IMG/VR virus record: IMGVR_UViG_3300024259_000165
Coordinates: 1 to 21,988 of that record
DNA: 21,988 nucleotides
Origin: a virus
Strand: one strand, 5' to 3'
Shown: positions 2,368 to 19,313 of the stretch, one piece after another
Layout of the letters: the number at the start of each line of letters is the position of its first letter
How positions within the stretch are numbered: position 1 is the first letter of the stretch
Translations under genes and position numbers: made by a program
Notes under the pieces: generated by a model
What the model saw: the letters and a program-made list of their open reading frames with translations, nothing else
Database searches by the model: none
What the model was told of the DNA's origin: nothing

Positions 2368-2612
2368 AGGAGTGCCTCCTCCAGTGTGCGGGTCCCCAGT
2401 ACATGTAGCTCATGCAGGAGCCTGTTCCTCTCCCGGGCCACGTCGTCGTACTGCCGCTCCATGAACTCTATGGTCTTGTGGGCGTCTGACAGGGCGTCCC
2501 GTAGGGCCATGATCTGCCCGTCCTGGAAAGCAGTAGACTCCCGCATGGTAGAGACAGCCTTCTCTAGGCGGTCTACCAGGTCCGCCAGGTCGTAGGTTTC
2601 TTGGTTGCTCAT
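2364..2612 (-). CDS. Coiled-coil small protein, 82 aa
   Basis: The predicted start MSNQETYDLADL overlaps the upstream stop (ATGA at 2609-2612) and is served by GGAGGAGGGAG. A longer in-frame extension to 2699 lies inside the ASCH gene and has a Gly/Gln-rich, non-natural look, so it is rejected. Residues 7 to 75 show heptad-like spacing of Leu, Val, Met and Ile with many charged residues (LVDRLEKAVSTM, RDALSDAHKTIEFM, ARERNRLLHELHVLG), typical of a long coiled coil. Oligomeric and cytoplasmic are reasonable guesses. No family is recognised. Confidence 0.65.
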   Translation of the reverse strand: MSNQETYDLADLVDRLEKAVSTMRESTAFQDGQIMALRDALSDAHKTIEFMERQYDDVARERNRLLHELHVLGTRTLEEALL

Positions 2613-3145
2613 GCTCCCTCCTCCACGCTGAACGCCACAACACTGACGTCCGGGTTGTCCGACGACCGCTGCCCCGGCTTCCTGTTGAGGCTGTCCCACA
2701 GGTCAGTAAAGTTAGGGACAGGGCAGAGCCCACGAACGCCCTCGGCAAACACTCCTGTCGGCGTGATATCCTGTAGCGGCTCTCTCCTGGCGTCCTCGGT
2801 CGCCACCAGCGTGATCCGGCTGGCCCACCGGGGCATATGGATAGAAGGGTTCCAAGGCCCTAAACTGTCGCTCGTGGCTCTGTACTCGACCTTGTCCGGC
2901 CCTCCATACTGATCCCGATATTCGTTGTACGAATACGGCCCCCTGTTGCACTTATCCCACGGCCACCATTCATCATATTCCGGCGATACATGGGTCCATG
3001 CCTGCCAAGTCTCCCGGACCCACAGCCGGTCACCCTTCTTGACCTTCGTCCACTGGTCAGAGAGTCGGCGGGTCTGTGTCTTGTGGCCGCTCAGTATCGC
3101 CTGAACCATCGCACCTGAAAACAGTATTGGATATTCCTTACTCAT
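2609..3145 (-). CDS. ASCH-domain protein, phage type
   Basis: The N-terminus PILFSGAMVQAILSGHKTQTRR and the motif KKGDRLWVRETW (about residues 36-47) are the signature of the phage branch of ASCH-domain proteins, a PUA-like fold thought to bind RNA or nucleotides. Members are common in phage genomes, often under vague names such as morphogenetic protein; the biochemical role is usually unknown. The length of 178 residues is normal. AGGAGG stands before the ATG. Upstream, a 27-nt gap to the XF1762-type gene contains a short in-frame ORF that may couple the two. The stop overlaps the coiled-coil gene as ATGA. Confidence 0.8.
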   Translation of the reverse strand: MSKEYPILFSGAMVQAILSGHKTQTRRLSDQWTKVKKGDRLWVRETWQAWTHVSPEYDEWWPWDKCNRGPYSYNEYRDQYGGPDKVEYRATSDSLGPWNPSIHMPRWASRITLVATEDARREPLQDITPTGVFAEGVRGLCPVPNFTDLWDSLNRKPGQRSSDNPDVSVVAFSVEEGA

Positions 3146-3156
3146 GCTCCCTCCTG

Positions 3157-3173
3157 GTCCGATAACCCCTATT
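3157..3173. repeat. Copy 1 of a 17-bp junction repeat
   Basis: GTCCGATAACCCCTATT on the plus strand, identical to 3638-3654. In both places it lies immediately upstream of a leftward gene and, within overlapping mini-ORFs, encodes NRGYRT in the same frame. Confidence 0.7.
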
Positions 3174-3637
3174 CATCCCGCTGCCAATATCTTCTTGGCC
3201 TCCACGCCCCACGGCGCAAGCCATCTGTGCTTTGAAAATGGAAGCAAGTTCTTTCTTCCGGTCCTGTAGTCTCTGCCGGGGTTTGTGATGCCTGCAAATA
3301 CGAAATTGGCAGCTCGCATTGACGCCCCCCCCTCTTCTGGCAGTGTATAGGTCACAAGATCCGTTGCCCCCATTGCCCGTGCAGCCCTTGAGCACGCACC
3401 ATACAACAACGAGCACGCATTCATGGCCCCGTCGGTGCATACCCTTAGAATCCCGAGCGCACCTTTCTTCATCCAGTCCACGGGCGGATTTCCGACAATG
3501 GCCACACCGCAAAGCCCGTCATCGTTATAGACGCCCACTGCCCACATTCCGCCTTGCACGTCTGGCAAGTGTCGATGGTGCTGTTTCACCCACTTCCTAG
3601 CAGCGGTGATCGTGGTCGGCCTATGGTACAATTTCAT
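3173..3637 (-). CDS. XF1762-family phage protein (GNAT-like), 154 aa
   Basis: The sequence follows the XF1762 family pattern closely: ARKWVKQHHRHLP near residue 13, VGVYNDDGLCGVAIVGNPP (about 34-52), then LRVCTDGAMNACSLLYGAC with ARAMGATDLVTYTLPEEGGASMRAANF. These proteins are frequent in phages and prophages and look like a minimal acetyltransferase-type fold, but I know of no proven substrate. The ATG has only a weak site (AGGGG, 9 nt spacing). It overlaps the stop of an 18-codon mini-ORF as ATGA, so coupled initiation is plausible. Its own stop overlaps another mini-ORF (3176-3138) leading into the ASCH gene. Confidence 0.85.
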   Translation of the reverse strand: MKLYHRPTTITAARKWVKQHHRHLPDVQGGMWAVGVYNDDGLCGVAIVGNPPVDWMKKGALGILRVCTDGAMNACSLLYGACSRAARAMGATDLVTYTLPEEGGASMRAANFVFAGITNPGRDYRTGRKNLLPFSKHRWLAPWGVEAKKILAAG

Positions 3638-3690
3638 GTCCGATAACCCCTATTATGTAAACTCGCCTCCCCTAGTCCCGTCTCCGTCAT
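3634..3690 (-). CDS. 18-residue mini-ORF bridging two genes
   Basis: Its ATG overlaps the stop of the 41-residue membrane protein gene and its TGA overlaps the ATG of the XF1762-type gene, an ATGA at both ends. The peptide ends HNRGYRT, encoded by a 17-nt sequence that recurs at 3157-3173 in the next junction. It is too short to judge by composition. It may act as a translational-coupling element rather than encode a functional peptide. Confidence 0.3.
   Translation of the reverse strand: MTETGLGEASLHNRGYRT
3638..3654. repeat. Copy 2 of a 17-bp junction repeat
   Basis: Identical to 3157-3173. Here it abuts the ATG of the XF1762-type gene and provides its only Shine-Dalgarno-like sequence (AGGGG read leftward). 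Confidence 0.7.
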
Positions 3691-3812
3691 GCCAGCACCC
3701 ATACGAGTATCCAAGTGCAGACCGCTATGATCACAGCGCAGGCGATAACGACGACCCGCAGGATACGGGCAGCGCGCCGGACACCTGATAGCGCAGCGTG
3801 TGTGTGGTTCAT
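3687..3812 (-). CDS. 41-residue single-pass membrane protein
   Basis: This small gene fills what otherwise looks like a 170-bp gap. The ATG at 3812 overlaps the upstream stop (ATGA) and is preceded by AGGAGG with good spacing. The peptide has a polar, positively charged N-terminus with three Arg (SGVRRAARILR) followed by an uninterrupted hydrophobic stretch from about residue 17 to the C-terminus (VVVIACAVIIAV, then CTWILVWVLA). This is a single transmembrane helix with the positive side probably cytoplasmic. Phage miniproteins of this kind can be holin-like, spanin-like or superinfection-exclusion proteins. It lies with unknown small genes, not with the two lysins, so the function remains open. 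Confidence 0.6.
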   Translation of the reverse strand: MNHTHAALSGVRRAARILRVVVIACAVIIAVCTWILVWVLA

Positions 3813-4021
3813 GCTCGCCTCCTAGCCCGCACGCAGCGGACCATAATGCTTGTCAGTCTGCGGTTTTCCCCCGTGCCGTCCCAGCACGCCCGCCACTGCG
3901 AACACCAGCCGCTATCGTCCTTCCAGTCTCCGAGCATATGCCGCTCATGGGGGCCACTGTGTTCGCAGTACTTGCAGGTCTCAAAGGCACCCGCCCGGTT
4001 GCAGACGTAGAGTCTACTCAT
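3809..4021 (-). CDS. Cys-rich small protein, 70 aa
   Basis: The protein contains CKYCEHSGPHERH (about 16-28), CSQWRAC (about 40-46) and a strongly basic end (RCVRARRRA). The C-x2-C pair with following His and Cys suggests metal binding; no family is recognised. ATG at 4021 is chosen because GGAGG lies 8 nt upstream; a GTG three codons earlier is possible. The start overlaps the upstream gene by 8 nt in the recurring junction sequence described in the findings, and the stop overlaps the 41-residue membrane gene as ATGA. The basic tail would suit nucleic acid contact, but that is only inference. Confidence 0.6.
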   Translation of the reverse strand: MSRLYVCNRAGAFETCKYCEHSGPHERHMLGDWKDDSGWCSQWRACWDGTGENRRLTSIMVRCVRARRRA

Positions 4022-4036
4022 CGCCGCCACCTCCCT
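4014..4036. repeat. Junction repeat, copy 1
   Basis: 23 bp identical to 4866-4888. A 17-bp core (ACTCATCGCCGCCACCT on the plus strand) also occurs at 4305-4321. It holds the ribosome binding site, the start codon and the upstream gene's final GGGDE and stop. Confidence 0.75.
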
Positions 4037-4310
4037 CTAACTCGCTCTCTAGCCAGTCCCTGACGCATTGAGTGCATACGTTGCCGTCATCGCAGTGCTC
4101 TACATGCCATTTATGCGGCAACACGCACCGGGAGCCATGGTCGATACAAGACCCAAAATGCATGACCAGCTTTTCCACCGCCGCCCGCAGGCGGGTGATC
4201 TCGGACAATGCCGCCCACATCAGCCTGGCAGAATCCATATCACCAACGATCTCACGTTCATGCGCGAATTCTTGCAATCTATTCGCCTTCACTTTCGTCC
4301 ACTCACTCAT
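4014..4310 (-). CDS. Small protein with C-terminal Cys/His cluster, 98 aa
   Basis: The N-terminal two thirds are helical and charged (WTKVKANRLQEFAHERE, then SARLMWAALSEITRLRAAVEKL). The last third carries CIDHGSRC, HKWHVEHC and CTQC, which could build one or two zinc sites. The final residues GGGGDE are encoded by the ribosome binding region of the next gene. The start at 4310 overlaps the upstream stop by 8 nt. The helix-plus-zinc-cluster plan resembles that of the next gene upstream (112 aa), which may be a diverged paralogue. No known family is recognised. Confidence 0.6.
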   Translation of the reverse strand: MSEWTKVKANRLQEFAHEREIVGDMDSARLMWAALSEITRLRAAVEKLVMHFGSCIDHGSRCVLPHKWHVEHCDDGNVCTQCVRDWLESELEGGGGDE

Positions 4311-4641
4311 CGCCGCCACCTTCCAAGTAGTTGCTCCAGCACTGTTCACAGTCAGGCATGTGTTTAGGGCACGATGCCGACCGGTACTCAAGGGACGGGC
4401 ACGCATTCTCAGCTAGAAAACCGAGCACTTTCCCTTCTTCCAGACTTTCGAGCGCCTCCAGTATCCGCTCATTCCTATTCATCCCTTCCCGCAGGCGCTC
4501 GATCTCCAGGAACAGGTCATGCAGCGTGAGATACCACCACTGAGTCTGCTCCTGTATCCTCTTGCGGTGGACCTTCTCAGCCCGCCAATCACGGAGGATG
4601 GCCATGGCCTGTAGATACTCTGTGCTGTGCCTATCGCTCAT
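4303..4641 (-). CDS. Helical protein with C-terminal Cys cluster, 112 aa
   Basis: Residues 10 to 85 look largely helical (LQAMAILRDWRAEKVHRKRIQEQ, with LTLHDLFLEIERLREGMNRNERILEALESLEEGKV interrupted for length). The C-terminal part carries five Cys in ENACPSLEYR, SASCPKHMPDC and EQCW. The end, LEGGGDE, matches the end of its neighbours because it overlaps the next ribosome binding site. ATG at 4641 overlaps the upstream gene by 11 nt. An ORF extension to 4716 lies inside the neighbour and is not used. Layout and ending suggest relation to the 98-residue gene downstream. Function unknown. Confidence 0.6.
   Translation of the reverse strand: MSDRHSTEYLQAMAILRDWRAEKVHRKRIQEQTQWWYLTLHDLFLEIERLREGMNRNERILEALESLEEGKVLGFLAENACPSLEYRSASCPKHMPDCEQCWSNYLEGGGDE
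4305..4321. repeat. Junction repeat, copy 2 (17-bp core)
   Basis: Same core and the same 8-nt gene overlap as copies 1 and 3, but with TGA instead of TAG as the upstream stop. Confidence 0.75.
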
Positions 4642-4873
4642 CGTCGCCTCGTCCCGCCATGACCGTACACTGCAAGTGGTTCCCGTGCAGGACCATCTTG
4701 AGCCTGCACTTATCACAGGCAGTAGTGCCCCCGTGAGACAGGGGCCGGTTTTCGTGCTCGCAACGGGGACACCGGAAGCCGACAGTCACAGTATGGACAT
4801 GCCCCTTCCTGATCTTGGAGTCGACACGTTCCTCTATCTCAAACTCACTGTACGGAAATATTTCACTACTCAT
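4631..4873 (-). CDS. Zinc-ribbon small protein, 80 aa
   Basis: Two clean C-x2-C pairs, FRCPRCEHEN (about 33-42) and ACDKCRLKM (about 52-60), flank a short loop, with a further Cys and His after them (HGNHLQC). This is the layout of a zinc ribbon, common in small phage regulators and nucleic acid binding proteins. The N-terminus is acidic (SEFEIEERVDSKIRKG). ATG at 4873 is chosen because GGAGG stands 8 nt upstream; a GTG three codons earlier is less likely. It overlaps the upstream gene by 8 nt with the same junction sequence found at 4014 and 4303. Confidence 0.65.
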   Translation of the reverse strand: MSSEIFPYSEFEIEERVDSKIRKGHVHTVTVGFRCPRCEHENRPLSHGGTTACDKCRLKMVLHGNHLQCTVMAGRGDDER

Positions 4874-4888
4874 CGCCGCCACCTCCCT
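4866..4888. repeat. Junction repeat, copy 3
   Basis: Identical to 4014-4036. The related junction at 4631-4650 has a diverged version with an 11-nt overlap. Confidence 0.75.
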
Positions 4889-5117
4889 TCCAGTCTGAAG
4901 CAGCCGCAGAGATCAAAGCGCACAGGCCCTCCGCATCGTCTGCCCACATGCTTATCTCACCCACGATACCGTCATTATAAATCTTCCGCAGATTGAGCAG
5001 CCCGCCTCCCTTGGAGTGTGTGCTGATAATGACTTCAAAGCCGCTCTTCCAGTCCTTGGGCCGCCACCTGGTCGTCGTCTTGACTCTCGTGTCGGTGCTC
5101 TTGTCAAACTTCATCAT
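4866..5117 (-). CDS. Small protein of unknown function, 83 aa
   Basis: A basic N-terminal half (KSTDTRVKTTTRWRPKDW) is followed by an apparent alpha/beta domain (GFEVIISTHSKGGG, RKIYNDGIVGEISMWADDAEGLCALISAAASDW). The length and the small basic sheet could fit a single-strand nucleic acid binder, but I do not recognise a family. Two ATGs (5117 and 5114) and a GTG (5120) are possible starts. AGGGGG lies 5 nt and 8 nt before the two ATGs respectively. It overlaps the downstream end of the loader-like gene and ends GGGGDE like other members of this cassette. Confidence 0.55.
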   Translation of the reverse strand: MMKFDKSTDTRVKTTTRWRPKDWKSGFEVIISTHSKGGGLLNLRKIYNDGIVGEISMWADDAEGLCALISAAASDWKGGGGDE

Positions 5118-8364: not shown

Positions 8365-9137
8365 TGCTCGGCCTCCTTTCTCGTCTTGAAGTAACGAAGC
8401 CCGGGCTTGAAGTCCATGCTACTCGGCCTGATGATATGGTCTATGTAGTCCGATGGGATGTCGAGTATCCTCACCCCTACGCCGTCACGCTTGGTGCAGT
8501 CGGGGCCGATGGTCTTGGAGTGGTTCCCCTCTATGACGGTGATCTGGCCGTTGATTCTCGGTAAAATAGCCATCATGACATGGCCGTGCTTCTGGCCGTC
8601 AGGTGGGCAGTGGACTACTATATCCCCGGGCTGGACCATCACGTACTTGCTGGCAGTACGGCAAGCACGAAGATCGGACAGGCGTTTATGGACGTCACGG
8701 ATCAACTCTACCTTCCCCTGCCACACCACGTACTGAGGAGCGCCTAGGTCTGACCCGTAGGTGCCATACACCCTAGCCCTGTACCAACTCCCGCAGTCGA
8801 GGGCGGTGTTCCATCCGGCATGGCGCAGCACCGCCTGGACGAAGTAGCCGCACCAGGCAGTAGAGCCGTTGGTGTACTTGGGGTCGCTGGCTCTACCCGC
8901 CATAGGGAATATCATCATGCCGATGGCGGCGTCGCCCCGGGAGTCCCCGTCTATGATGTCCAGACTGAAGAGTTTATGGCCCATGTCGCAGGCCACTACC
9001 CGCCAGCGCTCATAGCCATCCCACTGCGCCACGTTCGTTGGAGTAGAATTGTCGATATAGCTCATCGCTGCAAGTACCTCCTGTACCTTGATAGCCCCTG
9101 CCCTCAGTGATGTAGATAGGTCCCTCATGAACGGCAT
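8343..9137 (-). CDS. CHAP-type cysteine peptidase/amidase, second lysin candidate
   Basis: GSTAWCGYFVQAVLRHAGW places the likely nucleophile at Cys96. QPGDIVVHCP and HGHVMMAILP place the His at about 186. VIEGNHSKTI (about 201-210) supplies the usual third polar residue. This is the CHAP/NlpC-P60 layout of enzymes that cut peptidoglycan peptides. The final 25 residues (LRYFKTRKEAEQWLLNAS) resemble a small helical add-on. ATG at 9137 has GAGGTGAT just upstream and overlaps the preceding gene by 13 nt. An internal ATG at 9065 has AGGAGGT 10 nt upstream and could yield a shorter product. No signal peptide is evident. Confidence 0.75.
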   Translation of the reverse strand: MPFMRDLSTSLRAGAIKVQEVLAAMSYIDNSTPTNVAQWDGYERWRVVACDMGHKLFSLDIIDGDSRGDAAIGMMIFPMAGRASDPKYTNGSTAWCGYFVQAVLRHAGWNTALDCGSWYRARVYGTYGSDLGAPQYVVWQGKVELIRDVHKRLSDLRACRTASKYVMVQPGDIVVHCPPDGQKHGHVMMAILPRINGQITVIEGNHSKTIGPDCTKRDGVGVRILDIPSDYIDHIIRPSSMDFKPGLRYFKTRKEAEQWLLNAS

Positions 9138-9382
9138 TTTATCACCTCGTCCGGCAGAGTGATCGCCAATCGTTTCTTCTGTGAGAGCCGTCCGTAGAAG
9201 GTCACAAGCAACTGCTTCGCTGCTATCGTGGGCTCTATCTCCTGCGACTTCCAGCGTAGGAAGGTGCGGTAGTCGGCCTTGACGTTAGGGAAGACCCGCT
9301 TGGTGAACTTCACCCATGTCAGACCGGACGTCTCCTTCAGCGCTATGGCGAAGTCGCCCCAACTCTCAGACCCCGGGTTCAT
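9125..9382 (-). CDS. Small basic, possibly helix-turn-helix protein, 85 aa
   Basis: ATG at 9382 overlaps the upstream stop as ATGA and has AAGGGGG upstream; the frame to 9523 is a shadow. The protein looks all-helical with a basic character (WVKFTKRVFPNVKADYRTFLRW, then KQLLVTFYGRLSQKKRLAI). The spacing SGLTWVKFTKRVFP and ADYRTFLRW could form a helix-turn-helix, so DNA binding or transcriptional control is possible, but I cannot match a defined family. It is the only candidate small regulator I see on this strand. Confidence 0.5.
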   Translation of the reverse strand: MNPGSESWGDFAIALKETSGLTWVKFTKRVFPNVKADYRTFLRWKSQEIEPTIAAKQLLVTFYGRLSQKKRLAITLPDEVIKCRS

Positions 9383-9687
9383 TGTTCGCCCCCTTCCGTG
9401 GTCTTCTTGGCGATCCGCTCCCGGGATCTCTGGTCTGCCGCACGGAGCAGTTCGTGGAGCGGTTGTCCAAAAAAACCGAGGCACCATTCCTGCGCCTCGA
9501 CAAACGATGGAGATTCGGGACAACGTAGTTCGGTACAGATCCCGCTAGACCCGTGCCGCAAAATAAAGATCGCCTCCCTCATATCGGAGTCGCCGTCCTG
9601 GTCCTCTACCGTGACAGCGTCGCATCGTTGAAGATAGTCCTCTACGAGATCGAGAAACAGAATCGGCCAATGCTCATTCGCTTTCAT
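9379..9687 (-). CDS. Small protein of unknown function, 102 aa
   Basis: It is acidic in its first half (LFLDLVEDYLQRCDAV, EDQDGDSDMREAIFIL) and ends in a charged helical tail (LLRAADQRSRERIAKK). Three further Cys are spread through the middle without a clear metal-site pattern. The start overlaps the annealing gene's stop as ATGA and the end overlaps the next gene in the same way, so it is expressed in one operon with the recombination genes. No family is recognised. Confidence 0.6.
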   Translation of the reverse strand: MKANEHWPILFLDLVEDYLQRCDAVTVEDQDGDSDMREAIFILRHGSSGICTELRCPESPSFVEAQEWCLGFFGQPLHELLRAADQRSRERIAKKTTEGGEQ

Positions 9688-10337
9688 CCTCTGCCGCCTT
9701 TCTTGTAGGTGACCTGCTGGCAGTCGGATCGCGAGATGCCGGTGATGGATTCAAGCTCCTCCCACTCCAGGCCACGCAGGTCCAAGAGCCGCTGGATGCC
9801 GGTTCGCCGGGCGTCCGTCCAGGCCTTCTTCGAGATGTTCGGCTCGTTCACCTCGTAGAGTTTCTTCTTCTGGTTCTCCTTGGTGCCAGTCCCGAGGAAC
9901 TGGTCACGACTGGTAGCCATCCCGATAGCTTCGCAGGAGTCACCACCAGCAGGAAGGATGCTCTCCACGATGAAGGTGTAGATGTAGTACTTCCCAAGTT
10001 CGTCCTCGACCACTTCCTTGTCGCGGCTCTTGATGGTGCTCTTGATGCCGAATGCTCTCTCGACGTGGTCCGTGCCTCGTGAGTTCAGGAACGGGTGCCC
10101 GCCCTGGTCCGTCCAGTGTCGAGGCTTCGTGCATTTCAGGGCAGCGTCCCTGATCTTCTCAAGGAGGGTGGCCCGCTCCTTCGCCACCTGGAAAGCGGCT
10201 AGGCCATCAGTGATAGCAGCGGTATGGACCGACACACTGCTCTGGTTTACGGACGGGACCATCTCCTGTCCCGGCGCAGTCTCTCCTGGCAGTTTCTGGC
10301 TCTGCGGTTTAGGGTCTTCGCTAAACATCTCAGTCAT
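9684..10337 (-). CDS. Putative single-strand DNA annealing protein
   Basis: The sequence follows a pattern seen in phage proteins encoded next to RecB/Cas4-like nucleases: a disordered Pro/Gln/Ser-rich N-terminus (1-45), a helix, then KPRHWTDQGGHPFLNSRG, AFGIKSTI, YYIYTFIVES, EAIGMATS, and NEPNISKKAWTDARRTGI with QRLLDLRGLEWEELESI. The order of a W-x-D-x-G-G segment, the EAIG segment and the closing RLLxLRGLxWEEL matches candidates for Rad52/Erf/RecT-like annealing proteins, which pair complementary strands after exonuclease resection. The assignment rests on this pattern and the neighbour gene. AGGAGG precedes the ATG, and it overlaps the nuclease gene by 8 nt. Confidence 0.5.
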   Translation of the reverse strand: MTEMFSEDPKPQSQKLPGETAPGQEMVPSVNQSSVSVHTAAITDGLAAFQVAKERATLLEKIRDAALKCTKPRHWTDQGGHPFLNSRGTDHVERAFGIKSTIKSRDKEVVEDELGKYYIYTFIVESILPAGGDSCEAIGMATSRDQFLGTGTKENQKKKLYEVNEPNISKKAWTDARRTGIQRLLDLRGLEWEELESITGISRSDCQQVTYKKGGRG

Positions 10338-11352
10338 CGTCTTCCTCCTGGTTCTGGCGAGTGATTGTGACCCGCTTCGAGTTTATGACCCGGTACCATT
10401 CATCCGGTATATCTGCATCCTTCGGGGGTTTCAGTCTCCGCTGCTCTACTGAAGAGACACGGATAGTGAAGTCGCCCAGGATAAGGTACTCCTTCTCCTT
10501 CTTCTTCGCCGTGGCCTTGATGCTCTTGTCGAGGCGGCGATAAGCGTCGAAGTTATCCTGAAGGTCGGCGTGATCGCTCAAGGCCTTCTCAAGGCCTGCG
10601 TCGTCCAGGATCTCCACTTCTGCATCGTCTACGATATCAGGGAAGCACGCCCACCCACGGAACGGACACTTCACACACAGGAACCCGTGCTCGGCCTCCG
10701 GGATGAAGTCCTCCAGGTTATCGTTGGTGATGGCCTTGTTGTTCATGTAGCAAGTGATGCGCTCTGCCCGCTCGATGGCGTCTTCCAGGATCTCCTGATA
10801 GAGGTCGCCCCTCGGGAAGTCTATGCACTTGATCTCGCCGGTGGTCTTGTTCTTCAGTATCCAGACCCCAGCGTCGGCCTCAGTGAAGTACATGCCCATG
10901 GCCAACTGTGCGGGGTAGGTGCGATGGTATGGAGCGTTGGACCGGATGAAGTCGTCGATGGAGTGGATACGGTCGAAGATGTTCCCGCTCATCGACTTCA
11001 ACTCAGCCACGGTGATAGTCTCTCCCCGGTGTGGCCCCTCCTTGAAGGCCCCGTCTATCCGGCAGGTTATCTCCCGGATTTCGTCCCGGAACTCCCGTTC
11101 GGCCTCCAGTACCTCGAACCCGAGATCGCTCAACTCGCGCTTCACGGCCTTCTCGTGCAGGTACCCCTCGTCGAACACCGATTGTAGGATGACGTCGTGG
11201 GCCGGGATCTCCTGGCCCCGCTTCCGGCGCAGGTATAGGTACCTGTCGCACTTCCATCCCAACTGAGAAGCAGCGTTAGACCTGGCCCCCCAGGACTTGA
11301 TGCGAGACTCCTTCTTCTCTCTCCACGCCTTGTTGATTCTCTCTGCCAGCAT
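10330..11352 (-). CDS. Cas4/RecB-like PD-(D/E)XK exonuclease with iron-sulfur-type cysteines
   Basis: The PD-(D/E)XK core is visible: a His in EGYLHEKAVKREL, Asp100 in CRIDGAF, and VAELKSM with Glu117 and Lys119, followed by AQLAMGMYF. Four Cys fit a Cas4/AddB-type iron-sulfur cluster: Cys35 (GWKCDRYL) and the C-terminal group Cys226, Cys229 and Cys236 in FLCVKCPFRGWAC. The length of 340 residues fits phage Cas4-like nucleases. The enzyme would resect double-strand ends and hand strands to the annealing protein encoded next. AAGGAGG stands before the ATG. It is the first gene of the leftward block, transcribed from the promoter at about 11.4 kb. No cas genes or CRISPR array are nearby. Confidence 0.8.
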   Translation of the reverse strand: MLAERINKAWREKKESRIKSWGARSNAASQLGWKCDRYLYLRRKRGQEIPAHDVILQSVFDEGYLHEKAVKRELSDLGFEVLEAEREFRDEIREITCRIDGAFKEGPHRGETITVAELKSMSGNIFDRIHSIDDFIRSNAPYHRTYPAQLAMGMYFTEADAGVWILKNKTTGEIKCIDFPRGDLYQEILEDAIERAERITCYMNNKAITNDNLEDFIPEAEHGFLCVKCPFRGWACFPDIVDDAEVEILDDAGLEKALSDHADLQDNFDAYRRLDKSIKATAKKKEKEYLILGDFTIRVSSVEQRRLKPPKDADIPDEWYRVINSKRVTITRQNQEEDDD

Positions 11353-11372
11353 GTCGCCTCCTTGGTTGATTG

Positions 11373-11387
11373 GTGGTACAGTACCAC
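11373..11387. promoter_or_regulatory. Perfect 15-bp palindrome over the leftward -10 box (candidate operator)
   Basis: GTGGTAC-A-GTACCAC is a perfect 7-bp inverted repeat around one central base. It covers the -10 hexamer of the leftward promoter at the same offset as the related sequence at 1232-1246. A repressor or activator bound here would control the whole leftward block. A weaker relative, GTAGAGTACTATCAC, lies at 11418-11432 between the divergent promoters. Confidence 0.55.
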
Positions 11388-11407
11388 ACAGCCGGAACCC
11401 TTGTCAA
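11378..11407 (-). promoter_or_regulatory. Main leftward promoter
   Basis: Read leftward, TTGACA (11407-11402) is followed after 18 bp by TACTGT (11383-11378). The transcript would begin close to the AAGGAGG ribosome binding site of the nuclease gene at 11352. The -35 is perfect, the -10 is weak (three consensus positions), consistent with a promoter needing help or under control of the overlapping palindrome. Confidence 0.6.
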
Positions 11408-11451
11408 ACCCTTTTCAGTAGAGTACTATCACTTCACCGAGGCCGATTCCT

Positions 11452-11481
11452 TTGACAGTTCTCCTTCTATCGGTCTACCAT
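11452..11481 (+). promoter_or_regulatory. Main rightward promoter candidate
   Basis: TTGACA (11452-11457), an 18-bp spacer and TACCAT (11476-11481) point rightward, giving a leader of about 110 nt before the first right-arm gene. The -35 is perfect and the -10 weak, as for the leftward promoter. Together with it, this makes the 244-bp interval 11353-11596 the control region; I see no gene in it. Confidence 0.5.
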
Positions 11482-11501
11482 ATCCTCGCCTCCACAGGCA
11501 G

Positions 11502-11532
11502 CCTGGACGGAAGATGGCCTCAACCGTCCAGG
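11502..11532 (+). promoter_or_regulatory. Leader hairpin / palindrome upstream of the packaging genes
   Basis: CCTGGACGG (11502-11510) and CCGTCCAGG (11524-11532) are perfect inverted repeats around a 13-nt loop; a G-T and an A-T pair can lengthen the stem to 11 bp. No T-run follows, so it is not a classical terminator. It could be an RNA leader structure or a protein-binding palindrome. Confidence 0.6.
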
Positions 11533-11596
11533 TTCGTCCCAAAAACAATGTGACCAAAATGCCCCCCTAATACCAATGGGAAACAAGGGGGTTGCA

Positions 11597-11950
11597 ATGG
11601 CGCATGAACTAATCGTATCCTTGCTGCGTGAACTGATAACCGAACTAGAAGCAGGGAGAGGCGAAATGGAAGTAGCAAGCGGGGGCGCTCTACTGGCAGC
11701 GGCCATCTTCGTAATCAGAGACTTGACGAAGGTGATACGAAAACAGGTAGCAGCAAGGAACGGCAACGCCCCCCCGCCCACTGTACCTCCCCCCGACATG
11801 GTCTCCAGCGAACTCTGCCAAGCCCACCGCACCCATCTTGAAGATACATGCAACCGCATCGAGGCCAGTACTAGCAAGATATCCGACAAACTGAACCAGA
11901 CGAACACCAAACTCGATACCCTAATCGGCCAGATGGAGGCCCAGAAGTGA
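11597..11950 (+). CDS. Small membrane/coiled-coil protein before terminase, 117 aa
   Basis: ATG at 11597 is preferred over 11576 because AAGGGGG precedes it, while the earlier ATG has no ribosome binding site. The protein has an N-terminal helix (ELIVSLLRELITELEAG), one hydrophobic stretch (GGALLAAAIFVI, about 36-47) flanked by basic residues (RDLTKVIRKQVAAR), a Pro-rich hinge (NAPPPTVPPP) and a C-terminal coiled coil (NRIEASTSKISDKLNQ). One membrane segment plus a coiled coil resembles small holin-like proteins of the XhlA kind, but the position just before the large terminase would also suit a small terminase subunit. Neither is proven. Its stop overlaps the GTG of the terminase gene. Confidence 0.5.
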   Translation: MAHELIVSLLRELITELEAGRGEMEVASGGALLAAAIFVIRDLTKVIRKQVAARNGNAPPPTVPPPDMVSSELCQAHRTHLEDTCNRIEASTSKISDKLNQTNTKLDTLIGQMEAQK

Positions 11951-13926
11951 AGAACTACGAGTCTGTCTGCCAGGTCCGGCGTCCTGCACTGATAACGCAC
12001 GCTGACCCCAAGATAGACACCTCTGGCGAAGAGTACCACCAGTGGATCGCCAGGGATAAACGCCGACAGAAAGACCTGTTCGCCCTGTACCGGGAAGAAC
12101 CCGCATACTTCTTCTACGACTGCCTCAGTATCCGCATGAAGACCGGCTTCATCGGTCCTCTGGATATCGGTCACCCGCTGTATCACCGGGCACAGAAGAG
12201 GTTCTATGGCGCAGTGATGAAGCAGTGGCGCAACAACGGCCAGATACGAGTCTCCATGCTCAAGGCTCGGCAATGGGGCGGGTCAACCGATTCGCAGGGG
12301 TGGCTCCACTGGTTGGCCTATGTATGGCATATGCACGGGACCTGCATGGTAATCTGTGACGATACAGACGGGTCCGAGGCCATGTTCCGCATGGGGAAGT
12401 ATATGTACGAATCCCTCCCCGACTGGATCAGGCCCGACACCAAGTACGATTCAGCCGGGATGCTGAAGTTCACAGGGAAGCACCCTGTACTGAACGAGAA
12501 GATCAACTCAGAGATAGTCACGGAGACAGCGCAGAAAGCCCGGGCCGGTCGTAAGTACACCCTGCACGGGGTCCACTGCTCAGAGGTCGCCTTCTGGGGT
12601 GCGAAGGCCCCTGAAGTACTCGGCGGCATGTCGCAGGCCATACCAGAGAACCCCGGCACCATCTACATCAAGGAGTCTACGGCCTTCGGTCACGGGGGGG
12701 CGTTCCATGAGACGTTCACCAATGCGGGCGATGGAGTAGGCGGGGACCTGGCATTTTTTGTTCCGTGGTGCGAGATCGACGAGTACTCCCTGGACTCCAC
12801 AGATATGTCGAAGTGGGAGCACCCGGCAGTGAAGATCGACAGGGACGAGTGGCTGACCCACCAGCACGACGAGGAGTGGAGACGCCTGAACCTCACTCAG
12901 AACGAACTGGAGATACTCGAACTCGTCAAGAACGTCACACCGGCACAGCTCGCCTGGCGTCGCCGTAAACTCGTCGAAGGGTGCAGGGGCGACCCGGACC
13001 TCTTCAGGCAGGAATATCCCATCACCCCCGACGAGGCGTTCATCCAGCACGGCCAGTCGGTCTTCTCCCTCGTGGAGCTTCAGGAGCAGAGGGACAAGCA
13101 CATCAAGGAGCCAGAGTGCGGGATGCTCATAGAAGTTGGGAAGTCTATACCCGACGAGCCGCCCACCGAGATGAAGTGGCTTCCCAATCTCGACGGTCGC
13201 ATGATGATATGGGAGAAGCCCGACCCGACCCTCAACTACGTGATGGCCATCGACCCGGCAGAGGGGACAGAGGCGAAGTACCTGGACGGAGGTACCCTGT
13301 TCAGGGACTCTGATCGCTCCTGCGTCACAGTCGTGAACGCCAACACCAGAGAACTCGCAGCGGCGGTCCACGGACTCTATACCCCCCGTGACGTAGGTCA
13401 TATGGCCCTACTACTCGCCTGCCACTACAGCGAGTGCATCGTAGGGATAGAAATGAACGGCGGCTTCGGAGCGCCAGTGCTCGAAGTCTTCAGAAACCGC
13501 GGCTACGACAACCTCTATACCGAGAAGGTCTACAACAACGTCCTGCGGGACTACACCTACAGATACGGCTGGACCACGGGGAAGAATAACCGGATGCTGG
13601 CGTTCGAGAACGCACGAGGGCTCGTGAAGTCCAACAAGATGCCCCTGCGGTGGACGACCCTCCTCGATGAGATGATGTCCATGGTCTACACCCCCCTGGC
13701 CAGCGGCGGGGTAAAGCCCGAAGCGAAGACCGGGTGCCACGATGATGCGGTTATGTCCTGGGTCATATGTCAGCAGATACTCACCGAGCTATACGAGGCC
13801 CTGTTCGTGGACGAGATAATAGAGAAGGCCCAAATGGACCAACGCCGCAAACAGGTATGGGACCAGGTCTACGACTCCATGGATAACCCCGAAACGTCAG
13901 AGCCAGGGACCAACATGGGCGGGTAG
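11947..13926 (+). CDS. terL: Terminase large subunit
   Basis: This is the ATP-driven DNA packaging motor and headful or site-specific nuclease. The ATPase domain shows a variant Walker A, KARQWGGST (106-114), and a Walker B-type SEVAFW (212-217) with Glu213. The RNase H-like nuclease domain shows VMAIDPAEG with Asp436, GIEMNG with Glu502, and CHDDAV with Asp599 and Asp600. The length of 659 residues is at the upper end of the family. Translation starts at GTG (11947), overlapping the previous stop as GTGA, with GGAGG upstream. No clear small terminase subunit is seen; the preceding 117-residue protein is the only positional candidate. Confidence 0.92.
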   Translation: MKNYESVCQVRRPALITHADPKIDTSGEEYHQWIARDKRRQKDLFALYREEPAYFFYDCLSIRMKTGFIGPLDIGHPLYHRAQKRFYGAVMKQWRNNGQIRVSMLKARQWGGSTDSQGWLHWLAYVWHMHGTCMVICDDTDGSEAMFRMGKYMYESLPDWIRPDTKYDSAGMLKFTGKHPVLNEKINSEIVTETAQKARAGRKYTLHGVHCSEVAFWGAKAPEVLGGMSQAIPENPGTIYIKESTAFGHGGAFHETFTNAGDGVGGDLAFFVPWCEIDEYSLDSTDMSKWEHPAVKIDRDEWLTHQHDEEWRRLNLTQNELEILELVKNVTPAQLAWRRRKLVEGCRGDPDLFRQEYPITPDEAFIQHGQSVFSLVELQEQRDKHIKEPECGMLIEVGKSIPDEPPTEMKWLPNLDGRMMIWEKPDPTLNYVMAIDPAEGTEAKYLDGGTLFRDSDRSCVTVVNANTRELAAAVHGLYTPRDVGHMALLLACHYSECIVGIEMNGGFGAPVLEVFRNRGYDNLYTEKVYNNVLRDYTYRYGWTTGKNNRMLAFENARGLVKSNKMPLRWTTLLDEMMSMVYTPLASGGVKPEAKTGCHDDAVMSWVICQQILTELYEALFVDEIIEKAQMDQRRKQVWDQVYDSMDNPETSEPGTNMGG

Positions 13927-13941
13927 CCGCAGAAATAGTTC

Positions 13942-13969
13942 TTGACACAACATATATGCACATGAAAAT
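13942..13969 (+). promoter_or_regulatory. Possible promoter for the head genes
   Basis: In the 61-bp gap after terminase, TTGACA (13942-13947) is followed after 16 bp by GAAAAT (13964-13969), ending about 18 nt before the next ATG. This short AT-rich stretch stands out from its GC-rich surroundings. The spacing is one base below the usual optimum and the start of transcription would fall close to the ribosome binding site, so confidence is limited. Confidence 0.35.
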
Positions 13970-13987
13970 GAGGGAAGGAGGGACAAT

Positions 13988-14224
13988 ATGAGCACAGAAG
14001 CAGCCCTAGTCTTAGTGGCGGTGGCCTTTTTCGGCTTCAAGTCTCTCGAAATGTGGCTCAACTACCTCATGCATAAATTGCAGTACGAGACACAGAACGT
14101 GATGGACCCCAAGGACTACCAGCCAGGGATCGGTGACGGTCTCGGTGAGCATATCCAGGACGATTTCTATCGAGACCTTGAGGGAGGTATGGACGATGGC
14201 AGACCGAAAAAAGGGGAGCAATAG
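13988..14224 (+). CDS. Small N-terminal membrane protein, 78 aa
   Basis: AAGGAGG precedes the ATG. The N-terminus holds one transmembrane segment (AALVLVAVAFFGFKSLEMWL, about 5-24), followed by a polar, acidic tail (GDGLGEHIQDDFYRDLEGGMDDG) and a short basic end (RPKKGEQ). It is the first gene after the candidate promoter and lies among head genes, but it is not a recognised structural protein. A membrane protein here could be a holin or an anchor. The next gene begins inside its 3' end (29-nt overlap). Confidence 0.65.
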   Translation: MSTEAALVLVAVAFFGFKSLEMWLNYLMHKLQYETQNVMDPKDYQPGIGDGLGEHIQDDFYRDLEGGMDDGRPKKGEQ

Positions 14225-14918
14225 TTTTTCCGATGACATGTTCCGGTTCTTCTCTGAGTGGAACAAGACCGGGAACATGGGCAGCGCCCTAATCAACACC
14301 ATCCTCGTTCCGTACATCAAGAAGCCCAAGAGCACGTCGCCTTACAACCGCACCGACAATGTGACGCAGATGCCGAAGGGACCAGGCACGAATTTTCGTA
14401 TTGGCACTGTGAGCCCTATAGACTTCGCTCCCCCCGGAGCGAACGCAGCCCTCGTGAACCTGGCGGCTCGCGGTGCCCTACAGCGCCAGCCAGCCGCTTC
14501 CCCTACGCAGCAACTCGGGGGCCAGATGTGGGACGACTATCTCGGTACCAAGTGGGAGAACTCACCCTCCGATATCGCCATGCGGAACTCCACTCTCCCG
14601 GGGTATCAGTCGCAGGTAGCCTTCGGCAACGTATCGCAGCCGGTAGCGCAGCAGCCGGGACAGGGGGCATTTCAAGATCCCGACATCACAAGAGTCAATC
14701 AGAACTTCGGAACTCATACGGCTCCGCCCCCCATGGGTGTCATGGAGCGGATCAGGGCAGAGGCAGCTAGGAACGCTATGTCGGGGCAGCCAGTTATGGA
14801 CACCCCTCCCGGCATAGGCTCTCTCGGTAGGTTGCGCCAGAGCAATATGCCGATGCAGTCGCCATCCCAACTACAACAGATGTGGCGTCCAGACCCCTTC
14901 ATGAACAGGAGGCGATAA
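14196..14918 (+). CDS. Pro/Gln-rich structural-region protein, 240 aa
   Basis: The start MADRKKGSNSFSDD is chosen at 14196, where GGAGG lies upstream; the frame back to 14133 would overlap the membrane gene more deeply and has no better site. After a short N-terminal ordered part (FRFFSEWNKTGNMGSALINT), the rest is low-complexity, rich in Pro, Gln, Asn, Gly and Ala, with little hydrophobic core, suggesting disorder. Proteins of this type between terminase and portal are often internal virion or assembly-linked proteins. No family is recognised. It ends RRR and its stop overlaps the next ATG (TAATG). Confidence 0.6.
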   Translation: MADRKKGSNSFSDDMFRFFSEWNKTGNMGSALINTILVPYIKKPKSTSPYNRTDNVTQMPKGPGTNFRIGTVSPIDFAPPGANAALVNLAARGALQRQPAASPTQQLGGQMWDDYLGTKWENSPSDIAMRNSTLPGYQSQVAFGNVSQPVAQQPGQGAFQDPDITRVNQNFGTHTAPPPMGVMERIRAEAARNAMSGQPVMDTPPGIGSLGRLRQSNMPMQSPSQLQQMWRPDPFMNRRR

Positions 14919-15148
14919 TGCCGTACCAGATGCCACAGAGACCGCAGACTCAGACCGTGAAGAAACCCTCGTTCTGGGGGTCCGTGCTCGGGGGCCTCGT
15001 CAACCAGATCCCGGTTGTCGGCGGATACCTTGGGAACCAGATCGCCACCGGCCTCGCTGACGAGGAAGAGATTCGTATCCAGCAGCAGGCAGCGCAGGGA
15101 CTGATGGGCGGCGGCGGGTACCAACCATACATGGTACAAAGACGGTAA
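14918..15148 (+). CDS. Small Gly-rich protein, 76 aa
   Basis: The start at 14918 overlaps the preceding stop (TAATG) and has AGGAGG upstream; the frame back to 14882 is rejected. Residues 19-46 (SFWGSVLGGLVNQIPVVGG, then YLGNQIATGLA) have spaced glycines in a mildly hydrophobic segment, like a glycine-zipper helix that could insert in or associate with membranes. A Gln/Gly-rich tail with GLMGGGGYQPY follows. It could be a minor virion or ejection-related protein, but there is no direct evidence. Confidence 0.6.
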   Translation: MPYQMPQRPQTQTVKKPSFWGSVLGGLVNQIPVVGGYLGNQIATGLADEEEIRIQQQAAQGLMGGGGYQPYMVQRR

Positions 15149-15151
15149 CTG

Positions 15152-17113
15152 ATGAAGAAGATGAAGCATATAGACCTGATGCACCGTGTCCGGGATGCGG
15201 AGACGGCGAAGACCTCCCGCATGTTGGAGTGGCAGAGGAATATCGCCTTCAGGAAAGGGCGTCAGTGGATCATACCCGCCAGCAATCGGCGTGGGTGGCA
15301 GACAGCTCCCCTCCCCCGGTGGAAGGTATCTCTCACCATCAACTACATGCTTCCTATCTCTCAGATCATATCAGCCAAGCTGGTGCAGAACCGCCCGTCT
15401 TGGGAAGTACGGCCCTGGACCAACGACGAACGCGACAGGATGGCGGCCCGTGGTTCGGAGATGCTGCTTGAGCATATGTGGGAATACCTCAACATGCACC
15501 GGCACGCCATCAGGTTCATAGACTGGGCCTATCACTGCGGGACAGTCGGGGTAGGCGTCTACTGGAACCATACCGAGGGCTTCTCGGATACAGTCCTCGA
15601 CCCTGACGGGAACCCCATCATAGACGAGAAGACCGGCCTCCCCCTGGAGACCATGTACGGTCGGCCAGAGATCGACGTGGTATCCCCGTTCGACCTGGGG
15701 ATAGACCCATACGCAGAAGAGATCGAGAACATCGGATGGATGTACCGTACTCGGTGGGTCCACAAGTCCTGGATCAAGGACTACCTCGACAAGAGAGCGC
15801 AGGATGGAGAGACAGGCGACGGCGGCACAGTAGAGCACCGCACGGCCACCCTGGCATCCACTGAGACCGGCAACGACCCCTCAGACTGGATGACCGTATG
15901 GGAGATGTACTCCAAACTCGATAAGCGATACTGGATCTTCTCGAAGGAGCGCATCCTCGACACCGGCAAGTACGAGGGCGACTATCCCATCATCCTCTTC
16001 AGGATGGTCGATAACCCCGGCGATATCACGGGTAACACCGTGGCCGGCAACGCCATATGGGGCCAGCCCATGGCGAGTAGCCTCGTCCCCATCCAGATGG
16101 AACTGAACAAGGCAGCTTCGCAGATTATAGAGTACAAGAACCAGACGATATCCCCCAGGTTCCTCGCCTCCAAGATGGCACGCATGGACGTTTCCAGCAT
16201 CAGTGAGCGCCCTAACTCCCTCGTGATGTGGTCGGGCCAGGGGCAGGAACCCAAGCCTCTGTATCCCAGGGGACTGCCAGGCTTCATCGCTAACATGCCC
16301 GATACTCTCAAGCAGCAGATGCTCGACGTAGCGGGGGTACACGAGATCAGCCACGGCCAGGCCCCGGGTAGCGTACAGTCGGGTCGTGGACTCGCCATCC
16401 TCGCAGAGATGGACCAGACCAAGTGGGGACCAGCTACAGTAGAGCTAGACCGTGTCTTCGCTCAGATAGGCACGTTCATCATGAAGCTCTGGCGCGACCA
16501 TGCTCCTCCGCAACTCACCGTACGGGTGGTAGGGAAGAACAACGAGATCGACGTCCGGGAGATATACCGGTCCGACGTGATGGCCGAGAACATCCGAGTA
16601 GCGCAGGGCTCCACCTTCGCCAAGTCCAAGGCTCTCCGGCACGACCAGATCACTCAAGCCTGGCAGTTGGGCCTGATAGAGGATAGAGGCAAGGTGCTGA
16701 AGGCCCTCGACTTCGGAGACGTAGAATCCATATACGGCGACAACACCAAACAGCGACTGCGAGCCAGGAGAGAGAACGGCCAGTTGCTTGAGGGTATTCT
16801 CCCGCAGATACAGGAGTGGGACGACGACCTCATCCACATGGACGAGATAGAAGAGATCGCCACCTCCGAGATGTGGGACTCGTTCCCGGAAGAGGTGCAG
16901 CAGGTCATCACGCAGCACTACTCAGCACACAAGCAGCGATATCAGGCCCTCATGCAGATGCAGATGCAGGCGGCAGCCCAAAGGGGCGTAGCGTCAGCGG
17001 GCGGCGGAGGCGGGGGTCCTGTAGGCATGGAAGGGGCCAGCCCTGAAGCGAACGGGGAGACCCCAGGACTGAACGGCAATATGCCAGATACTACGACGGA
17101 GGCCATGAGATGA
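15152..17113 (+). CDS. Portal protein
   Basis: This is the dodecameric DNA gate at one head vertex. The N-terminal pattern WQRNIAFRKGRQWI, LTINYMLPISQIISAKL and NRPSWEVRPW, followed by SEMLLEHMWEYLNMH and WAYHCGTVGVGVYW, matches the portal family of the P22-like or long Gram-positive phage type. It continues through a beta-rich wing and a helical crown, and ends in a Gln/Met/Gly-rich tail with QMQMQAAAQRG and SAGGGGGGPVG. The length of 653 residues fits. The ATG three bases after the previous stop has no good Shine-Dalgarno sequence, so initiation probably relies on coupling. Position between terminase and scaffold supports the call. Confidence 0.85.
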   Translation: MKKMKHIDLMHRVRDAETAKTSRMLEWQRNIAFRKGRQWIIPASNRRGWQTAPLPRWKVSLTINYMLPISQIISAKLVQNRPSWEVRPWTNDERDRMAARGSEMLLEHMWEYLNMHRHAIRFIDWAYHCGTVGVGVYWNHTEGFSDTVLDPDGNPIIDEKTGLPLETMYGRPEIDVVSPFDLGIDPYAEEIENIGWMYRTRWVHKSWIKDYLDKRAQDGETGDGGTVEHRTATLASTETGNDPSDWMTVWEMYSKLDKRYWIFSKERILDTGKYEGDYPIILFRMVDNPGDITGNTVAGNAIWGQPMASSLVPIQMELNKAASQIIEYKNQTISPRFLASKMARMDVSSISERPNSLVMWSGQGQEPKPLYPRGLPGFIANMPDTLKQQMLDVAGVHEISHGQAPGSVQSGRGLAILAEMDQTKWGPATVELDRVFAQIGTFIMKLWRDHAPPQLTVRVVGKNNEIDVREIYRSDVMAENIRVAQGSTFAKSKALRHDQITQAWQLGLIEDRGKVLKALDFGDVESIYGDNTKQRLRARRENGQLLEGILPQIQEWDDDLIHMDEIEEIATSEMWDSFPEEVQQVITQHYSAHKQRYQALMQMQMQAAAQRGVASAGGGGGGPVGMEGASPEANGETPGLNGNMPDTTTEAMR

Positions 17114-17865
17114 GTGAAGAATTCGGTGAAGGAATAAGCACGGGTGAGCCTACGGGCGAGATTGGTGGGGACAGTACCGGAGAACTCGGAGAGGTCGGTG
17201 CAGGCGGAGACGCCGCACAACTTCCCGAAGGTGGTGCCATCGCCGCAGAGACGGTGTCCGCTACGGATTTCAACGCCCTCAAGGAACAGATCGCCCAACA
17301 GGCGGAGACGATGAATCGTCTTCAGGCGCAGAACATGATGCTCAACGAGAACTACCAGCAGGCGACAGCCCGGGTAGACGGGCTCCTATCGCAGGGCTTC
17401 AGCGGTGAGCCGGACATAGATCCCGAAGAGATCGACGTCCAGCCCACGGCAGCAGTGCCCCAGGAGTATCAGCAGAAACTGGAGGATCTGGAGAACTTCA
17501 AGCGAAGCTACGAGATCAAGCAGGCGCAGGACCGCATCGTGAGCGAAACGACTGCGGCCATCAATGCTCTGCCCGAGAACGAGCGACTCCTGGTGGACAG
17601 CAACGAGGTCTATGCGAGACTCGGCCAGGCGGGTGGCGGCAATCGGAAGATCGCTGACATCGTCAAGGAGGTCCACACTCGCAGGATAGCGATGATGAAG
17701 AAGCAGGGGTACGAGATGAAGAAGCAGACCACACCTCCGCACTTGAGAGGGGGGGGCTCCCCCGAACCCAAACGCCCGGCATATACGGGCTCAAAATCAG
17801 AACAGCGGGAACAGGCGGCCCAGTGGCTTGCCACCCGCATGGCGAAGCGCGCTGACATGGTTTAG
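17110..17865 (+). CDS. Scaffolding protein
   Basis: The position directly between portal and major capsid and the composition are typical of a scaffold. There is an acidic, Gly-rich, disordered N-terminus (about 1-45), a long coiled-coil region (ALKEQIAQQAETMNRLQAQN and further helices to about residue 190), and a basic C-terminal part (HTRRIAMMKKQ, GYEMKKQT, ending ATRMAKRADMV). Scaffold C-termini of this kind contact the capsid protein. The start overlaps the portal stop as ATGA and has GGAGG upstream. It could include a protease, but no catalytic motif is visible. Confidence 0.75.
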   Translation: MSEEFGEGISTGEPTGEIGGDSTGELGEVGAGGDAAQLPEGGAIAAETVSATDFNALKEQIAQQAETMNRLQAQNMMLNENYQQATARVDGLLSQGFSGEPDIDPEEIDVQPTAAVPQEYQQKLEDLENFKRSYEIKQAQDRIVSETTAAINALPENERLLVDSNEVYARLGQAGGGNRKIADIVKEVHTRRIAMMKKQGYEMKKQTTPPHLRGGGSPEPKRPAYTGSKSEQREQAAQWLATRMAKRADMV

Positions 17866-17891
17866 CGTCGGCTTCCAAGGAGACTTGAAAA

Positions 17892-19313
17892 ATGGCATAC
17901 GTAGACGATTATGGACAGAGTTACGGTGGGGCTCCCACCTACGGTACGGTAACAGCCTCCGGTCTCGAAGCAGCGATGAAGGATATGGCCCTGGCCCTGT
18001 CCGACCTGCTCGACACTCAGACCGAAGTATGGGACATCTTCAAGAAGAAGGTGGAACCCGGCAAGTGGGTCGGTCGCCGGATGACCTTCCCTGTGAAGAA
18101 GTCACGGACGGCTGCGTGGGGCGCAGTGGGCGAGAGCGCTCCGATGCCTCCAGTCGGGAAGACCGACTTCGACGAGTCCGTCATCCTCCCGAAGTACCTA
18201 TATGGCACAGTGGGACTGACCGGCCAGGCGTACTTCCTGACCCAGGGTGAAGGCACGGTCGAGGGCGCTTCGGATGCTCTCTCCATGGAGATGGACACCT
18301 TCCTGGACGCTTTCCACCTCTACCTCCAGTCGCAGTTGTGGGGCACAGGCTCCGGGATCGTCGGCTCGGTAAAGGCGTTCGCTGCTGGACCCCCGAAGGT
18401 GGTCACGCTCCAGGGCCGCAACAATGAAGTCGGCGGCTCGTGGGATTCTACCAACACCTACGCCACGGTCCTCGGCCAGGGTTCAACGCGCAACCTACAG
18501 AAGGGTCAGAAGGTCGTATGGGGTTCCTATGCGACGCCCACCTTCACCTACGCTGGACGCGGATACATCAGCAAAATCACTGCCGAGCAGACGTTCGAGG
18601 TAACGGTGGATGCTGACGCAGATCCTACAGCGGCAGACATCATCGTAACCGGGTACTACGACTCCACAGACGCAGTGAACTATACCTCCATCGGTGCTGG
18701 AGCGGCCACGATCACCTACACGGTGGCAACCCCCGGTACCGAGATGATGGGCCTCCTCGGCCTCGCCGCTCCGTACAGCACTGCGGAGAACTACGTCCTC
18801 CAGCAGCTTGACCCTGCGTCCATTCCCGAGTGGGCTCCTGTCATCATCGACGCTGAATGGAACTTCCTCGACCGCACCCTCCTGGAGCAGTTGATCGAGG
18901 GTCCGCATGAGGCTGCTGGTGTGAATATCACCGACATCTTCATGAACACGCAGATGCGGAAGCACTTCATCGACATGATCGAGGATGATCGGCGGTACTC
19001 CGCCCTGGAAACCAAAGTCGGCTGGCGTGCCCTGGAGTTCGCAGCCGGTGACCGCAACGTCAAGATCACCTTCCACAAGTCCGTGCCCATGTATATGGTG
19101 TACGGGTGCGACGCCAACGCCATCAAGTACTCCCTGGCCAAGCAGCCTGGGTGGATCACCTGGAACAACGGCGGGGACATCCTCCGACCGGTGGGCAGGC
19201 GTGACGCAGCAGAGGCGTTCTACGGCATGTACGGCAACTTCTATACGAAGAAGCGCCAGGCCATCGCCGTGATGAAGAACGTGAACATGACGATCAAGCA
19301 CTACGGCGCATAA
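17892..19313 (+). CDS. Major capsid protein, probable HK97 fold
   Basis: The 473-residue product of the gene after the scaffold. It has an N-terminal helix region (SGLEAAMKDMALALSDLLD), an E-loop-like beta segment (WVGRRMTFPVKKSRTAAW), a long spine-like helix with DALSMEMDTFLDAFHLYL, a beta-rich insertion rich in Thr, Gly and Ala (about 170-280), and a C-terminal domain ending KRQAIAVMKNVNM. The order of these elements is that of HK97-fold capsid proteins. AAGGAG precedes the ATG, consistent with strong expression. There is no sign of a fused protease. A GC-rich folded junction follows the stop. Confidence 0.8.
   Translation: MAYVDDYGQSYGGAPTYGTVTASGLEAAMKDMALALSDLLDTQTEVWDIFKKKVEPGKWVGRRMTFPVKKSRTAAWGAVGESAPMPPVGKTDFDESVILPKYLYGTVGLTGQAYFLTQGEGTVEGASDALSMEMDTFLDAFHLYLQSQLWGTGSGIVGSVKAFAAGPPKVVTLQGRNNEVGGSWDSTNTYATVLGQGSTRNLQKGQKVVWGSYATPTFTYAGRGYISKITAEQTFEVTVDADADPTAADIIVTGYYDSTDAVNYTSIGAGAATITYTVATPGTEMMGLLGLAAPYSTAENYVLQQLDPASIPEWAPVIIDAEWNFLDRTLLEQLIEGPHEAAGVNITDIFMNTQMRKHFIDMIEDDRRYSALETKVGWRALEFAAGDRNVKITFHKSVPMYMVYGCDANAIKYSLAKQPGWITWNNGGDILRPVGRRDAAEAFYGMYGNFYTKKRQAIAVMKNVNMTIKHYGA

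Follow-up and report, generated by a model that had tools for sequence, protein, structure and literature searches.

A gene junction reused within the accessory operon of a phage, and its possible part in the gain and loss of single genes

The SAS repeats of cluster K mycobacteriophages (PMC3203893) and of cluster EF Microbacterium phages (PMC7302621) are multi-copy motifs that occupy the ribosome-binding site (RBS) position of non-structural genes. Short conserved boundary sequences have also been invoked to explain phage mosaicism (Susskind and Botstein 1978; Clark et al. 2001, for HK620; both as cited in PMC3029335), and among cluster I mycobacteriophages a comparison of the close phages Island3 and Brujita demonstrated the presence and absence of one gene, Island3 gene 68, that is bracketed by a repeat of ~60 bp (PMC3029335). 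Termination-reinitiation is described at overlapping genes of the ATGA and TGATG kind (PMC6728339), and the annealing recombinases of phages can work on diverged sequences (PMC2327257). For the precise swapping of single small genes at their boundaries, two explanations compete: targeted exchange at conserved boundaries, and random exchange followed by selection.

Anatomy of the operon and its junctions

The window, by which we mean the whole stretch of DNA analysed, is an entire virus record of 21,988 bp. Its structural genes (terminase, SU10-type portal and major head protein) run rightward from ~11.6 kb, and its left half is taken up by a leftward operon whose genes serve replication and recombination or are small accessory genes, the last including the cassette considered here (Table 1). 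The phage encodes a Cas4-type exonuclease and a RuvC-like resolvase. The exonuclease gene (10330-11352) is adjoined by that of an uncharacterised protein of 217 aa (9684-10337), and in MW202801 a protein 30% identical to this product also stands beside a Cas4-like gene, which suggests, on sequence and gene order, that the two may form a recombination pair; this product is the presumed annealing protein, but no annealing recombinase was identified in the phage, and a single-sequence structure prediction of the 217-aa protein was too low in confidence to use (pLDDT 44). At the right end of the window, long imperfect direct repeats (20028-21253; 170 nt at 75%, 138 nt at 74%) probably belong to a repetitive structural gene.

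Table 1. Cassette genes, neighbouring genes and repeated gene-start sequences of the leftward operon
Feature	Position	Strand	Description
g4	4866..5117	-	83 aa; C-terminus GGGGDE; no family
g3	4631..4873	-	80 aa; probable zinc ribbon, weak matches under curated cut-offs
g2	4303..4641	-	112 aa; C-terminus GGGDE; weak phrog_2994 match
g1	4014..4310	-	98 aa; C-terminus GGGGDE; no family
gA	3809..4021	-	70 aa; Cys-rich; no family
Mom-like DNA modification / XF1762 family gene	3173..3637	-	154 aa
phrog_874-matching gene	2609..3145	-	178 aa; function unknown
Junction g4/g3	4866..4888	-	AGGGAGGTGGCGGCGATGAGTAG; SD, g3 ATG and g4 stop; overlap 8 nt
Junction g3/g2	4631..4652	-	diverged form ACGAGGCGACGATGAGCGATAG; overlap 11 nt
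Junction g2/g1	4305..4321	-	17-bp core AGGTGGCGGCGATGAGT, then GA of stop; overlap 8 nt
Junction g1/gA	4014..4036	-	23 bp, identical to 4866-4888; overlap 8 nt
AATAGGGGTTATCGGAC, first copy	3638..3654	-	17 bp; directly before ATG of Mom-like gene
AATAGGGGTTATCGGAC, second copy	3157..3173	-	begins at final base of stop of Mom-like gene
AGGAGGGAGCATGAG, first copy	3141..3155	-	15 bp; start of 2609-3145 gene
AGGAGGGAGCATGAG, second copy	2608..2622	-	end of 2609-3145 gene and start of 2364-2612 gene; overlap 4 nt

The original prediction described a 23-bp sequence, AGGGAGGTGGCGGCGATGAGTAG, identical at two gene junctions, with its 17-bp core at another junction and a diverged form at one more, each copy containing a Shine-Dalgarno (SD) sequence, a start codon and the upstream stop. 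All of this was borne out, on the minus strand, as were the gene overlaps. In the three close copies a 7-nt spacer separates the SD (GGAGGT, or GAAGGT at 4305) from the downstream ATG, and each copy also holds the upstream gene's stop; the identity of the 23-bp pair extends from SD to stop, as functional constraint would predict. Stop and start overlap with the SD inside the upstream gene, which is the arrangement expected of termination-reinitiation. Predicted RNA folding at the junction showed no excess over shuffles. The encoded ends follow the prediction in most respects: an MS start is found in g3, g2, g1 and gA, and a GGGDE tail in g4, g2 and g1, but g3 ends in GRGDDER; 'Cys-rich' applies to the four products with an MS start, g4 being the exception.

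Two more exact gene-start repeats, absent from the original prediction, bring to three the distinct junction sequences that are repeated within this one operon, and each of these two brackets exactly one gene. The second copy of AATAGGGGTTATCGGAC lies outside the RBS position because an added SD (AGGAGGGAGC) intervenes between it and the next ATG, and to judge from its placement this displaced copy looks like a relic and not a functional RBS. The other repeat, GGAGGGAGCATGAG, is exact over 14 bp at 2608-2621 and 3141-3154. By eye only, the leader CTAGGAGGCGAG (3814-3825) of the small gene at 3687-3812 has a gapped echo, CTAGGGGAGGCGAG (3662-3675), downstream of that gene. The Mom-like gene, with its 17-bp direct repeat on either side, is a possible DNA modification gene within an accessory operon.

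Occurrence of the junction within and beyond the window

The likeness of the junctions is greater than chance and greater than the demands of translation initiation. A 19-bp query with at most three mismatches had 3 matches against 0.03 expected from dinucleotide shuffles. Under a stricter null, each column of all 35 gene-start regions was shuffled in 200 trials, which preserves the preferences for SD, spacing and ATG. The longest run shared identically by a pair of gene starts then averaged 10.2, with a maximum of 16, against 23 in the window; the likeness therefore exceeds RBS constraint.

How often gene starts are repeated in this way was gauged from an unselected survey of 61 phage loci, chosen solely by a distant terminase match and with genes called by a simple, uncurated script. 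A gene-start repeat of at least 14 bp was present in 3 of the 61, the longest run in the remainder being 13 bp or less. All three repeats are shared by adjacent genes, adjacent genes accounting for 12.5% of same-strand pairs, and two of the three pairs are non-paralogous (the third, in L133, is a paralogous pair). Two extra cases have the same neighbour geometry (L036, 25 bp; L039, 24 bp), and of the five outside cases so assembled, four bracket genes that are not alike. When insertion or excision takes place at the start region of a gene, what remains is that gene flanked by copies of the region.

As a single element, the junction recurs elsewhere. The exact 17-mer was found in 23 viral stretches, and ~9 of the ~16 independent ones are GGGDE-stop/MS-start junctions, carried by phages without detectable relation to the window. 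Among 24 bacterial and archaeal stretches, ~12 have junctions of the GGGDE/MS type, always in single copy. Species of Halorubrum (L150, L152, L153, L157) offer a convergent cellular case, a GGGGDE-stop/MS junction with 8-nt overlap before an ABC-transporter-like gene. A single junction of this type is therefore ordinary, and arises repeatedly by convergence in unrelated phages, bacteria and haloarchaea. Since unrelated phages and bacteria reach it by convergence, the sequence has a translational role first; and since 17-19 bp of it arise singly in unrelated genomes, part of the likeness is due to nothing more than selection on the junction. Reiteration of the junction, unlike its single occurrence, is not ordinary, and elsewhere it goes with exchange.

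Two contigs of a single metagenome sample carry arrays of junctions that follow the pattern GGTGGCGACGATGAGTGA and are confined to one strand, 12 in G001 (113 kb) and 13 in G002 (45 kb); a reversed-pattern control gave zero junctions in both contigs, and named phages yielded no megablast match to the array of G001. These small-gene arrays (L032, which is G001:12001-32000, at 9035-18501; L034/L035 in G002) are joined by 12-13 near-identical GGDDE-stop/MSD junctions, and also contain a second junction type, ..ATT-stop/ATGAGT, with a 4-nt overlap. Many of their products carry an EIERLRA-like coiled-coil motif, and one gene (L032, 13751-14398) is an apparent fusion of an MPS-type N-terminal domain (compare L034, 1046-1366) with a C-terminal domain that stands alone at L032 16403-16780.

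Between the two contigs, a 70-bp block is 100% identical and centred on the junction ALEAIAGGGDDA-stop/MPSAVVPEQPMV. The genes upstream of it are unrelated and those downstream only ~41% identical; the block itself has two different neighbours on each side, subject to the reservation that assembly could mispair flanks in contigs from one shared sample. Further blocks, with identities of 82% (123 bp), 74% (164 bp) and 65% (209 bp), cross the 3' part of a gene and end 2-9 bp from the next start, after which a different gene follows. Among 11 homology blocks, 5 have an end no more than 10 bp from a start codon, where chance would give 0.7 (P = 0.0006); the test was restricted to blocks of at least 70 bp, short junction-only matches being left out. 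Breakpoints at gene boundaries could, by themselves, be attributed to random exchange and selection; the 70-bp identity around a junction is not so explained. Arrays in which a reusable translation signal forms the boundary are a testable case of how small genes are swapped, and in these contigs one such boundary lies within a tract of 70 identical bp.

The close kin found for the window are cassette-free fragments. Searches with the terminase, portal and capsid proteins, together with a terminase alignment, returned the near-identical fragments L004 and L005, neither of which covers the cassette, and distant phages; one relative with a terminase of 41% identity (L054) is a short contig around that gene. 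Because the kin that were found do not cover the cassette, shuffling in this phage is something that we infer.

Possible origin and use of the repeated junction

In explaining how near-identical junctions came to be reiterated in one operon, the account we consider somewhat more probable than its competitors taken together is that a junction serving translational coupling has been copied within the operon, and acts also as a homology tract for the gain and loss of single genes. The final codons of the upstream gene contain a strong SD (GGAGGT), and 7 nt beyond it comes an ATG lying in an 8-nt overlap with the upstream stop. A ribosome finishing one small gene would thereby be placed to start the next, which makes the junction a putative site of translational coupling. 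The copies would have arisen when single genes were inserted or lost beside the junction, which was copied in the process, and they would continue to offer short stretches of homology, between which a bracketed gene could be lost or gained with the neighbouring reading frames intact. We infer, in other words, that the junction copies descend from copying of the junction itself and continue in use as homology tracts.

The original prediction had proposed such shuffling without disruption of translation, and its two parts fare differently. The idea of a homology tract gains from the 70-bp block with its unrelated upstream genes and from the five block ends near start codons, as well as from the Cas4-type exonuclease and RuvC-like resolvase of the phage; it loses from the fact that a single junction is also convergent and from the failure to identify the presumed annealing protein. 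A homologous tract common to the copies does stand at the gene junctions, as expected of a recombination boundary; different genes at such a tract are seen in G001 and G002, outside the window's own lineage. The preservation of reading frame is correct as far as it goes, in that simulated deletions between copies left all tested flanking proteins intact, but it is nothing special: joining any two cassette genes ATG-to-ATG kept the length of the upstream protein in 26 of 36 combinations. Frame safety is weak evidence because these plain joins mostly keep length as well, and we rejected frame-safe recombination as a special argument.

If no copying had taken place, every junction would have to have been selected independently as an optimal overlapping signal of SD, start and stop. 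The coincidence of repeat ends with functional landmarks is consistent with such pure convergence, as is the recurrence of the exact 17- to 19-mer at single junctions in unrelated phages and in cells; yet it would leave the run of 23 bp well above what SD and spacing preferences yield, no cellular stretch had two copies, and neither the displaced AATAGGGGTTATCGGAC copy nor the 70-bp identity of the two contigs is accounted for. The relic copy already weakens this explanation, which we regard as unlikely. Copying of another kind, in which whole genes were duplicated in tandem and then diverged until the junctions alone were recognisable, had been set against shuffling in the original prediction itself, and it is not supported: the gene bodies are without significant similarity in DNA or protein, and with the shared ends excluded, neither the cassette proteins nor the gene bodies include a pair that is convincingly above shuffles. 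The body similarity that defines a tandem paralog array is thus missing from the cassette. A 20-residue C-terminal match between g1 and g2, consisting of a similar Cys motif ahead of the tail (E = 0.004 in a single comparison), and the one paralogous survey pair speak for duplication, but given that four of the five outside cases bracket dissimilar genes we consider it very improbable.

A further alternative is that the junction is a binding or translation-control signal of start-associated type, whose likeness is maintained by a factor of phage or host that recognises it, and that recombination is a mere side effect. Precedent comes from the SAS motifs, which the 12-13 copies of the two contig arrays resemble, and the SAS of TM4 was recovered by the same method as used here. 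Against this, the window has only three near-identical copies and one diverged, its junctions have no large intergenic gaps, the RNA fold is unremarkable, and the 13-bp SAS consensus sequences GGGATAGGAGCCC and GGGAAAGGACCCC gave 2 and 0 matches (at most two mismatches), which is chance level, with none at the junctions; we consider a signal of this kind distinctly improbable.

Beyond this operon, copying and reuse of a coupling junction might be one instance of a modular cassette architecture of phage accessory operons, in which single genes enter and leave through standardised overlapping junctions, each of which encodes the end of one protein together with the beginning of its neighbour, also in unrelated phages with near-identical junctions. 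We put this forward tentatively, as a doubtful but possible generalisation; if true, it would be a natural counterpart of standard assembly parts. For annotation there is a warning, in that C-terminal GGGDE or GGDDE tails and MS or MSD heads in genes of such arrays may belong to the junction and not to the protein fold.

Comparison with described systems

The features of the window junction have analogues in each of the systems described above. Like SAS and ESAS, it is a short, highly conserved, multi-copy repeat in RBS position, confined to non-structural genes, mostly in one orientation and with unrelated genes behind it, and its conservation goes beyond SD pairing. However, SAS stop short of the start codon, whereas the window repeat runs across the stop and start codons and contributes residues to the upstream as well as the downstream protein; SAS mostly follow gaps of >50 bp, while the window junctions overlap by 8, 8, 8 and 11 nt; and the consensus sequences differ, so that membership of the SAS fails on consensus and on intergenic gap. 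With the stop/start overlaps of termination-reinitiation the junction shares the capacity to couple translation of both genes, though here an 8-nt overlap, near-identical inclusive of its SD, is reused at several junctions of one operon.

The proposed boundary sequences, in so far as they are represented in the citing paper, resemble the junction in being repeats at gene junctions and a possible target of homologous recombination, and differ in that the boundary in the window doubles as a translation start signal and is reiterated within one operon of one genome. The repeat of Island3 likewise lies at gene 3' ends and brackets one gene; it is ~60 bp long, with presence and absence shown, whereas the window repeats are of 14-23 bp. 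The repeated junction is, in sum, a stronger and overlapping version of things already described, and not a new kind of element.
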